A stretch of DNA of 33,756 nucleotides. It comes from Gammaproteobacteria bacterium (GTDB taxonomy: Bacteria > Pseudomonadota > Gammaproteobacteria > DSM-19610). The position numbers and the translations under genes were made by a program. Where the stretch lies: the NCBI GenBank assembly GCA_026197075.1, contig JAPHQV010000044.1:1-33756 (forward strand), written 5' to 3'. Of this stretch, positions 15,888 to 19,590 are shown in pieces (the stretch's first letter is position 1; every line of letters starts with the position of its first letter). Below the pieces are notes generated by a model. That model saw only the letters and a list, made by a program, of their open reading frames with translations. It made no database searches and was not told the DNA's origin.

Positions 15888-18596
15888 ATGCACAAACCCA
15901 ACCCCTTTGTCCTGGTGGATGGATCGTCCTATCTGTACCGTGCCTTTCACGCACTGCCACCGCTGACCAATTCTCGGGGCGAACCCACCGGGGCCGTGTA
16001 CGGTGTGGCCAATATGCTGCGCAAACTGGTCGACGACTATACGCCGGAACAGATTGCCGTGGTATTCGATGCCAAGGGCAAGACCTTCCGCGACGAGCTG
16101 TTCGCCGAGTACAAGGCCCACCGGCCACCCATGCCCGAGGAACTGAGCGCCCAGATCGCCCCCCTGCATGCCCTGGTGCGTGCCATGGGATTGCCCCTGC
16201 TGCAGGTGCCCGGAGTGGAGGCGGACGATGTCATCGGCACCCTGGCGCGCCAGGCCTCGGGCGAGGGTCGGCACACCCTCATCTCCACCGGCGACAAGGA
16301 CATGGCGCAGCTGGTGGACGAGCAGGTCACTCTCATCAATACCATGAGCAACACCCTGCTGGATCCTCCCGGCGTGGTGGCAAAATTCGGTGTGCCGCCC
16401 GAGTGCATCATCGATTACCTGGCCCTGGTGGGCGACACCTCCGACAACATCCCCGGCGTGCCCAAGGTAGGGCCCAAGACCGCGGCCAAGTGGCTCAACG
16501 AATATGGCTCCCTGGACGCGATCATCGCCCACGCCGACGAGATCAAGGGCAAGGTGGGAGAAAGCCTGCGCGCCAGCCTCGACACCCTGGCCCTGTCACG
16601 CCAGCTCGCCACCATCCGCTGCGACGTGGAACTGGAAGAGGACCCCGCCAGCCTGCGACGCCGGGAACCGGACCGGGATGCCCTGCGCGAGTGGTACAAA
16701 AAACTGGAGTTCAACACCTGGTTGCGCCAGCTGGATGAAGGCGCGGCACCGGAAGCCAGCCCTTCCGCCGCCCGCGAACCGCTGGACGCCGATTACGAAA
16801 CCGTATTCACGCAGAAGCGACTCGATGCCTGGCTCGAACGACTGCAGCGGGCCGAGCTGTTCGCCTTCGATACGGAGACCACCAGCCTGCGCTACATGGA
16901 GGCACGCATCGTCGGGGTTTCCTTCGCCGTGGAAGCCGGCCAGGCCGCCTACGTGCCCCTGACCCACGACTACCCCGGCGCCCCCGATCAACTGGATCGC
17001 GACCAGGTGCTGGAACAGCTGAAACCCCTGCTGGAAGATGCCGGCAAGGCCAAGCTGGGCCAGCACCTGAAATATGATCTCAATGTGCTGGCCAATCACG
17101 GCATCCGGCTGCGCGGCATCGCCCACGACACCATGCTGGAATCCTATGTACTGGACAGCACCGCCACCCGCCACGACATGGATTCCCTGGCGCGCAAGTA
17201 TCTCGACCACGACACCATCCGCTTCGAGGAGGTGGCCGGCAAGGGCGCCAGGCAGCTCAGCTTCAACCAGGTGGCGATCGAGGTGGCCGCGCCCTATGCC
17301 GCCGAGGACGCCGACATCACCCTGCGTCTGCACGAAACCCTGTGGCCGAAACTGCAGGCGCAGGCCGGCCTGCGCGCCGTCTACCAGGACATCGAGATCC
17401 CGTTGATCCCTATCCTCGCCGCCATGGAACAGCGCGGCGTGCTGGTGGACCGCAAACTGCTCGCCACCCAGAGCGGGGAACTGGCCAGGCGCCTGCACGA
17501 AATCGAGGCACAGGCACACGACATCGCCGGCCAGCCCTTCAACCTGGGCTCGCCCAAGCAGATCCAGGAGATCCTGTTCGACAAACTGGAACTGCCGGTG
17601 CTCTCCAAGACCCCCAAGGGCGTACCCTCCACGGCGGAGAACGTACTGCAGGAACTGGCGGAACAGGGCCATGAGCTGCCGCGGGTGCTGCTCGAGCACC
17701 GCTCGCTCAGCAAGCTCAAGTCCACCTACACCGACAAGCTGCCGGAACAGATCGATGCCGACACCGGCCGTGTGCACACCTCCTATCACCAGGCGGTGGC
17801 CGCCACCGGCCGCCTGTCCTCCTCGGATCCCAATCTGCAGAATATCCCCATCCGCACCGAGGAGGGCCGGCGCATCCGCCAGGCCTTCATCGCGCCCGAG
17901 GGCTGCCGCCTGCTGGCGGCGGACTATTCCCAGATCGAACTGCGCATCATGGCCCACCTGTCGCGGGACGAGGGTCTGCTGGCCGCCTTCGCCGCCGATG
18001 CCGACATCCACCGTGCCACCGCCGCCGAAGTGTTCGGCATCCCACCGGAACAGGTGAGCGGCGACCAGCGCCGTTCCGCCAAGGCCATCAACTTCGGCCT
18101 CATCTACGGCATGTCCGCCTTCGGCCTGGCGCGCCAGCTGGGCATCGACCGCGGCGCCGCCCAGCGCTACGTGGATCTCTACTTCGAACGCTATCCCGGG
18201 GTGAAGCGCTACATGGACGAGACCCGCGAGCAGGCCCGCGAGCAGGGCTACGTGGAAACGGTATTCGGCCGCCGCCTGTACCTGCCGGAGATCCGTGACC
18301 GCAACGGCCAGCGCCGCGCCGCCGCCGAGCGCACCGCCATCAACGCCCCCATGCAGGGCACGGCAGCGGACATCATCAAGCGCGCCATGCTGCGCGTGGA
18401 AACATGGAATAAAGGTTCCGGTCTCGACGTCACATTGATCATGCAGGTCCACGACGAACTGGTGTTCGAAGTGGCGGAAAAGGACATCGAGGCCGCAAAA
18501 TCAGGTATTTGCGAAGCCATGGAGGGGGCCGCGGAACTCTCCGTGCCACTCCGGGTCGAATTGGGCACAGGTCATAACTGGGACGAGGCGCACTGA
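15888..18596 (+). CDS. polA: DNA polymerase I
   Basis: PolA fills gaps and removes primers in replication and repair. The 902-residue protein is complete: an N-terminal 5'-3' exonuclease domain (about 1-290; [47 protein letters not shown]), a 3'-5' proofreading domain with its DxE motif intact (Asp328, Glu330 in FDTETTSL), and a family A polymerase domain with DYSQIELR (Asp679) and VHDELVFEV (Asp856). The intact exonuclease site suggests proofreading is kept. It is divergent from the LOG-family gene and convergent with engB, with a probable small RNA between, as around Escherichia coli polA-spf-yihA. Confidence 0.98.
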
Positions 18597-18649
18597 GCTA
18601 GCACGAACGGTATTTGCGCCACAAGCCTTTAAATCTCGCCAGAATGACC

Positions 18650-18655
18650 TATTAT
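18650..18655 (+). promoter_or_regulatory. Candidate -10 box for the polA-engB small RNA
   Basis: TATTAT differs from the consensus at one base and lies 54 bases after the polA stop. A -35 box at the expected distance is poor (TTTAAA or CTTTAA, near 18628-18634), so an activator or another sigma factor may be needed, or the RNA may come from polA readthrough. Confidence 0.35.
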
Positions 18656-18661
18656 GTACAC

Positions 18662-18872
18662 AGATGATGGATTCGGGTGCCGCAGGACCGGCACCGGGTC
18701 AGTAACCAGGACACAAGGATCACCATAGAGACCAGCGACTGACAAGCTTTTACCCATGGCGCGCAAGCGCCGTCCCGCTTCCCCCCCGAAGCGGGATTCC
18801 TCCAACCCGGTTTCCCCAAGCCGGGTGTTTTAACCCCGGTGCTTCCCCCCCTTGCAACCCGGGGTTTTTTTT
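18662..18872 (+). ncRNA. Probable trans-acting small RNA at the Spot 42/ErsA locus
   Basis: About 210 bases downstream of polA fold into five successive hairpins: GGTGCCG/CGGCACC (18676-18695); GGCGC-GCAA-GCGCC with a GNRA tetraloop (18758-18771); CCCGCTTC/GAAGCGGG with a CCCCCC loop (18774-18795); a 9-pair stem with loop CCCC (18805-18826); and a terminator stem AACCCCGG/CCGGGGTT followed by eight Ts (18832-18872). The string GCTTCCCCCCC occurs twice (18777-18787, 18841-18851), each time at a hairpin loop. The region has no ORF with a good start. Spot 42 in Escherichia coli and ErsA in Pseudomonas aeruginosa lie in the same polA-engB gap in the same direction. Sequence similarity to either is not evident, so this is homology of place, not shown homology of sequence. 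The 5' end is a guess from the -10 box. Confidence 0.65.
18832..18872 (+). terminator. Intrinsic terminator of the polA-engB small RNA
   Basis: An eight-pair stem AACCCCGG/CCGGGGTT (18832-18839 with 18859-18866), extended by TGC/GCA after a two-base bulge, encloses a C-rich loop and leads into TTTTTTTT (18865-18872). This is a textbook Rho-independent terminator and the strongest in the window. Confidence 0.88.
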
Positions 18873-18881
18873 GCCTGAAAT

Positions 18882-18912
18882 TCGGAAACCGGGCAGAGCC
18901 CGCTCCTACGGG
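18882..18912. repeat. Single REP-like palindrome overlapping the engB stop
   Basis: On the minus strand GTAGGAGCGGGC-TCT-GCCCGG is followed by a degenerate TTTCCGAA end. Only one unit is seen, with no inverted partner, unlike the other family 1 copies. The engB stop codon TAG (18908-18906) is the TAG of GTAGGAGCGG. Confidence 0.7.
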
Positions 18913-19541
18913 GCCTGTTCCGGGGCGCTGGTGTCCTGTGCCGGCTCCGGGAACAGCCAGCGGTCGAGCTGCTTGCGCGCCTCGTCCACCCCCTGGCGGT
19001 CGAGGGCGGAAAACAGTTGCACCGTGGCCCAGGGATGCAGCGCCGCCAACTGCTTGCGCACCTGCAGCAGGCTGGCCTGGGCGGCACCGCGCTTGAGCTT
19101 GTCGGCCTTGGTCAGCAGCACGTGGGTGGGCAGGCGCGCCTGCGCCGTCCAGCCCAGCATCTGCACATCGAAGTCGGTCAGGGGATGGCGCACATCCATC
19201 AGCAGGACCAGGCCCTTGAGCGCCGTGCGCTTCTCCAGGTACTCCCCCAGGGCTGCCTGCCACTGGCGTTTCATTCTGATCGGCACCTTGGCATAGCCAT
19301 AACCGGGCAGGTCCACCAGACGATGCGACTCGTCCATGGCAAAGAAATTGATCTGTTGGGTGCGTCCCGGCGTTTTACTGGTGCGCGCCAGCGCCTTCTG
19401 ACTGCTGATCACATTGAGAGCGCTGGACTTGCCGGCGTTGGAACGCCCGGCAAAGGCCACTTCCGCGCCCTCGTCGGGGGGCGCGAAGCGGATGTCGGGA
19501 GCACTGGTCAGAAAGCGGGCCTGCTGATAAGGATTCGTCAT
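18906..19541 (-). CDS. engB: Ribosome biogenesis GTPase EngB (YihA/YsxC)
   Basis: EngB is an essential GTPase for large ribosomal subunit assembly. The 211-residue protein has all GTPase motifs: G1 GRSNAGKSS (about 32-40), switch region [15 protein letters not shown]3 [12 protein letters not shown]4 TKADKL and G5-like FSALDRQG. The start [20 protein letters not shown] aligns with the Escherichia coli start; longer frames (for example [15 protein letters not shown]) are possible but match nothing known. Its stop codon is contributed by a REP-like repeat, so the last residues after the conserved end ([14 protein letters not shown]) may be recently changed. It is convergent with polA and divergent from the cytochrome c4 gene. 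Confidence 0.96.
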
Positions 19542-19590
19542 GGCAGGCATTTTCCCCGTCTTGGCGGCGCTTGTCATGGAACCTTTGCGG

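Follow-up and report, generated by a model that had tools for sequence, protein, structure and literature searches.

A probable small RNA gene with C-rich loops between polA and engB, and its relation to sX13, ErsA and ncS04

When describing the small RNA (sRNA) sX13 in 2013, its authors raised the question of whether such sRNAs are also encoded at polA in other bacteria (PMC3771888). We analyzed the gap between polA and engB in a stretch of 33,756 nt, referred to in the following as the window, from a gammaproteobacterial genome of 2.99 Mb. An initial annotation had proposed that positions 18662–18872 encode an sRNA that is the positional counterpart of Spot 42 and ErsA; that both of these lie downstream of polA and point in the same direction was confirmed. 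We consider it probable, at roughly 0.8, that the element is a gene for a small regulatory RNA acting in trans, with C-rich loops that would pair with G-rich ribosome-binding sites, and that it is a branch of an ancient polA/engB sRNA family. Conservation, covariation and synteny give good support to the presence of an sRNA gene, to its standing as the positional counterpart of ErsA, and to the C-loops as its functional element.

Anatomy of the polA–engB gap

The upstream neighbor, polA (DNA polymerase I; 15888–18596, forward strand), was recognized as a 902-aa open reading frame (ORF) with the polA C-terminal sequence, and a C-terminal query matched PolA loci at 66–77% identity. Downstream, the convergent engB gene (YihA/YsxC GTPase) occupies 18906–19577 on the reverse strand, with a start codon picked by inspection. 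The gap of 18597–18905 contains, on the forward strand, a promoter-like box, five hairpins, an exact repeat of GCTTCCCCCCC, a CCCC loop and a terminator with a T8 tail. The sequence features named in the initial annotation were all recovered: the five hairpins were predicted at 18676–18695, 18758–18771, 18774–18795, 18805–18826 and 18834–18864, the eight Ts of the terminator at 18865–18872, the third loop, CCCC, at 18814–18817, and the 11-base string GCTTCCCCCCC at 18777 and 18841, its only occurrences in the window.

The window has two C7 runs in all its 33.7 kb, both inside the GCTTCCCCCCC copies. In the first copy, GCTT lies within the stem, leaving only C6 in the loop. The repeat is weak evidence when taken alone, as 42 of 2000 dinucleotide shuffles gave an equal or longer one. 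Neither did it hold up as a conserved design, for the first copy was found in the one genome of the same genus (L002) and in none of the family's other genera.

Folding of 18662–18880 gave a z-score of −3.3. This signal was concentrated in the last 99 nt (18774–18872; z = −6.0), while the 5′ part (18662–18770) did not fold significantly (z = −0.9). The C-runs of all three loops in this last part were predicted to be unpaired with a probability near 1. We refer to the last three hairpins (18774–18872) as the core. Core hairpin 1, CCCGCTTC-CCCCCC-GAAGCGGG (18774–18795), is followed by the linker ATTCCTCCAA (18796–18805), which is nearly constant in the family alignment and carries a CCTCC complementary to the Shine–Dalgarno core. 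Core hairpin 2, ACCCGG-TTTCCCCAAG-CCGGGT (18805–18826), has a CCCCA loop that is the most widely kept of all, and core hairpin 3 is the intrinsic terminator (18834–18872), with C7 in its loop and the T8 tail.

The remaining 5′ extension (18662–18773), which includes the first two hairpins, is lineage-specific, its sequence being kept within the genus only. A small protein in this part (MMDSGAAGPAPGQ, read from the sequence) was considered and rejected, as it is short and absent from other genera. The element had no match in the plasmid collection searched.

Upstream of the extension, a consensus scan identified a sigma-70-like, promoter-like site, TTTAAA-16-TATTAT (18628–18655, forward strand), which ends at 18655 and fits a start near 18662. 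Its −10 box lines up with boxes of the CTATAGT type found elsewhere in the family.

Conservation and covariation of the three-hairpin core

A DNA search of 95 relatives showed 93% identity over the entire stretch in the single genome of the same genus, and 87–94% over the last 80–105 nt only in other members of the family. We then compared 18 polA gaps within the family, 16 of which could be used in the alignment. Core hairpins 2 and 3 were nearly invariant, as was the linker ATTCCTCCA; core hairpin 1 was variable and the 5′ part divergent. In 17 of the 18 gaps, a −10 box of the TATAGT/TATTAT type preceded the terminator end by 213–237 nt; the eighteenth (L010) also has the box, and its terminator was identified by reading the sequence. 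Since this box keeps a similar distance in spite of the divergence of the 5′ part, the data support a conserved start and a transcript of approximately 205–225 nt in the family.

The polA gaps of other Gammaproteobacteria displayed the same three hairpins and C-rich loops on unrelated stems. A covariance model of the core, R1, was built from nine sequences, including the window RNA and excluding Pseudomonas and Xanthomonas, with no gene information. It was based on a smaller alignment (A2), as the first MAFFT alignment (A1) had hairpin 1 misaligned. R1 matched 137 of 275 genomes of the class at E ≤ 0.01, mostly at one place per genome, although E-values from the shortened calibration are rough. 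The window RNA, itself a training sequence of R1, scored 89.9 bits (E = 1.9e-18) and was the sole match in its genome. Of 90 R1 loci that were fetched, 70 fell within the polA/engB interval: 64 were preceded by polA in the same orientation, followed by a convergent engB, or both; two overlapped the end of engB; and four lay on the other strand between both genes. The window RNA thus has a significant match to R1, three covarying stems and C-rich loops, and lies in the polA/engB interval, and can be assigned to the three-C-loop family that R1 defines.

Covariation was assessed in 109 matches. All 19 modelled base pairs, including seven of seven in core hairpin 1, changed on both sides, and 95.4% of the cells were paired, an effect size that is overstated by counting on a structure-fitted alignment. 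None of 500 shuffles reached the observed values, and slid partners paired at 32–57% (54–57% for a slide of one base), so these controls leave little doubt that the covariation is real. Loop 1 consisted of 59.5% C and 4.0% G, whereas the stems had equal C and G, and loops 1, 2 and 3 carried CCTCC, CTCCC or CCCC in 94, 99 and 84 of the 109 sequences, respectively. Two of the checks proposed in the initial annotation thereby gave a positive outcome: a covariance model made from related polA gaps recovered the RNA throughout the class, and compensatory changes in the stems were accompanied by loops that stayed C-rich and G-poor.

The hairpins might instead belong to polA alone, as its 3′ untranslated region and terminator, in which case no distinct RNA would exist. 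The element does start 66 nt after the polA stop codon, extends to 276 nt after it and ends in an intrinsic terminator. We consider this very improbable, however, given that the stems of the three hairpins covary while their C-loops stay constant, that promoter boxes occur at fixed distances, and that there are copies without a polA match within about 2 kb, inverted copies and tandem arrays. The sRNAs that resemble homologues of the element also have independent transcripts (PMC3771888, PMC5688073).

The arrangement of the RNA gene varied among the class genomes. In four loci (L126, L151, L189 and L201) it keeps its place between polA and engB but has the opposite orientation. Some genomes have 2–4 tandem copies: there are arrays of up to four (L157 in genome G185, L183 in G283 and L138 in G249) and tandem pairs (L132, L165, L169, L170, L190, L192, L193, L194, L201, L207 and L208). 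In the two four-copy arrays that were read (L157 and L183), which lie between polA and engB, most copies have their own sigma-E-like promoter, of the GAACTT/GAACTC...GTCTGA type. One family has a second locus, in the form of a tandem pair adjoining an RlmL-type methyltransferase gene (L169 in G040 and L207 in G282).

Relation to known RNA families

Nothing in the window reached the gathering score of any Rfam family. The initial annotation had seen no similarity to known families, a statement that needs revision, since sub-threshold matches were found to three of them. The closest was anti-hemB (RF02837), with 32.5 bits (E = 6e-6) against a gathering cut-off of 49.5 bits, followed by ErsA/Pseudomon-1 (RF01719), with 32.4 bits over model positions 33–116 only (cut-off 50), and sX13 (RF02232), with 24.3 bits (cut-off 50 bits).

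These weak matches pointed to the same loci in other genomes. When the anti-hemB model was run over the 275 genomes, 46 of its top 50 matches coincided with R1 loci, and two R1 loci that were scanned against all of Rfam exceeded the anti-hemB cut-off. The match of the ErsA model in the source genome and in several relatives was the polA–engB sRNA locus, and the sub-threshold matches of the sX13 model outside xanthomonads included eight R1 loci, as compared by eye. R1 itself missed sX13 in one xanthomonad genome, where it matched another site. A broader model, R2, found that sX13; it scored held-out sX13 sequences, at polA, at 38–44 bits, recovered held-out sX13 loci in whole genomes at E-values of about 1e-5, and gave mostly 28–36 bits on ErsA, also at polA.

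All three of the matched RNAs are experimentally detected transcripts (PMC3771888, PMC5819304, PMC5688073). Encoded beside polA, sX13 forms three stems with C-rich loops, and it represses target mRNAs by pairing of these loops with G-rich motifs, for which Hfq is not required (PMC3771888). The window RNA shares this layout, in that polA is followed in the same orientation by three stem-loops, each with a C-rich apical loop (C4–C5 in sX13); sX13 differs in being 115 nt long, without the 5′ extension, and in having XCV4199 as a neighbor instead of engB. ErsA shares the polA–engB gap, the direction, a closely similar terminator (AACCCCGG...CCGGGGTTTTTTTTGCCTG) and a C-rich terminator loop. It is, however, sigma-22 dependent (PMC5819304), and the window has no such box. 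The anti-hemB RNA, known as ncS04 in Burkholderia, was detected by RNA-seq and Northern blot and is reported to bind Hfq, and CU-rich unpaired stretches have been reported for several B. cenocepacia sRNAs (PMC5688073). It differs from the window RNA in its length of 105 nt and in a middle hairpin that is divergent in the model. RF02837 also matches polA/engB RNAs outside Burkholderia (L125 and L131), and hemB was not found as a neighbor in any fetched R1 locus; the name anti-hemB therefore looks misleading outside Burkholderia.

We place the window RNA in the same broad family as sX13, ErsA and ncS04; common descent of those three, a link of moderate strength, appears likely, if unproven, with kinship to sX13 and ErsA resting on modest scores and synteny. 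The likeness to sX13 and ErsA could also be a convergence at a favored locus, as the cross-matches are below the Rfam cut-offs and C-rich loops also occur in sRNAs without a relationship to these, RNAIII of Staphylococcus aureus being one (PMC3771888). This seems unlikely to us, considering that the place, the direction and the number and order of the hairpins are all the same, that the anti-hemB matches coincide with R1 matches, and that R2 recovers held-out sX13 in whole genomes at E of about 1e-5. Many members also have a sigma-E-like box upstream, in line with the sigma-22 dependence of ErsA (PMC5819304).

The kinship with Spot 42 suggested by the shared locus did not fare as well. The likeness of Spot 42 to the window RNA lies in its genomic place and direction only. 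The Spot 42 model (RF00021) gave no match in the window even at E = 10, and neither R1 nor R2 produced a significant one; the place alone is common. R2 did match weakly within the Spot 42 of Klebsiella (18.8 bits, E = 0.03), but scores at enteric and Vibrio loci were not significant, and the authors of the sX13 study likewise saw no resemblance of sX13 to Spot 42 at the sequence level (PMC3771888). That the window RNA is a true Spot 42 family member by descent is thus very improbable.

Promoters, proposed action and significance

A sigma-E-like box (GAACTT-N15-18-TCNNA) was found upstream of the core in 66 of 138 class matches, compared to 0.3 expected by shuffling; this set holds some loci twice, and the non-duplicated count was 52 of 106. 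The distance from the end of the box to the first stem was 15–40 nt in nearly all cases and 21–35 nt in most, and the derived consensus is tGAACTTTT-N16-GTCTTA. By this strict pattern, about half of the members have a core-proximal box, for example L127, L130, L134 and L144. A sigma-E-like promoter near the core in many relatives is what a sigma-22-dependent ErsA would predict, and it points to envelope stress as the ancestral signal.

Within the same family, the box is kept in four loci (L004, L009, L013 and L014), while none of the sigma-E/sigma-22 type was found upstream of the core in the window or its congener L002. The simplest reading of these sequences is that the genus no longer has the envelope-stress promoter near the core and depends on the distal sigma-70/sigma-S-like one. 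The genome encodes RpoE, RpoS and Hfq.

The RNA would probably be transcribed from its own promoter (−10 box at 18650–18655) as a transcript of approximately 211 nt ending at 18872, perhaps to be processed to the three-hairpin core of approximately 100 nt. Each core hairpin would present a C-rich, G-poor loop, to which the first linker adds CCUCC. By analogy with sX13, these loops and the CCUCC may be expected to pair with the G-rich Shine–Dalgarno regions of several mRNAs, and translation of these mRNAs would be blocked or tuned. Such masking of ribosome-binding sites is what we infer for the window RNA.

The perfect complement of the repeated loop, GGGGGGAAGC, occurs at six other sites in the genome, one of them convincingly at a ribosome-binding site, which is too weak to claim a target. 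At this site (L226, complementary strand near 1510), 5 nt separate GGGGGGAAGC from the ATG of a long ORF, which follows a repeat-rich surface-protein gene in a surface-type operon and is a candidate target only. The hfq gene, a target of sX13, was considered as well and rejected, as its own ribosome-binding site (AAGGAG) is not G-rich, unlike those of the sX13 targets.

Alternatively, the RNA could act mainly as a sponge for a protein, such as Hfq, a CsrA-like protein or a poly-C-binding protein, rather than by pairing with mRNA. The multiple repeated loops and the tandem copies do resemble sponge RNAs, and ncS04 binds Hfq (PMC5688073). Several points count against a sponge. Hfq prefers A- and U-rich RNA. 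CsrA binds GGA motifs (PMC4894983), whereas the loops avoid G. Mutations in the sX13 loops act via G-rich mRNA motifs and without Hfq (PMC3771888). We regard a sponge as quite improbable as the main action, and retain pairing with G-rich ribosome-binding sites as the preferred reading. A role for Hfq in this pairing is conceivable, as the regulation of several ErsA targets is Hfq-dependent (PMC8575079), and is an inferred part of the model, as is the promoter replacement.

About half of the sampled class genomes carry such an sRNA at a detectable score; the RNA family is very widespread, though patchily annotated. Among the open-access papers searched, none mentions sX13 and ErsA together. On balance, we lean towards the view that sX13, ErsA, ncS04/anti-hemB and many unannotated polA/engB RNAs form a single ancient family of general envelope-stress RNAs with several anti-Shine–Dalgarno loops, which was under sigma-E control in its ancestral state and is gammaproteobacterial in the sense that includes betaproteobacteria. 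The lineage of the window would have swapped the promoter for a distal sigma-70/S one and added a 5′ domain, while tandem arrays arose elsewhere. If sX13, ErsA and ncS04 are one family with sigma-E promoters, results from separate organisms could be pooled. If this is true, envelope stress as the signal and G-rich ribosome-binding sites as the rule for targets would both become directly testable in many non-enteric bacteria.
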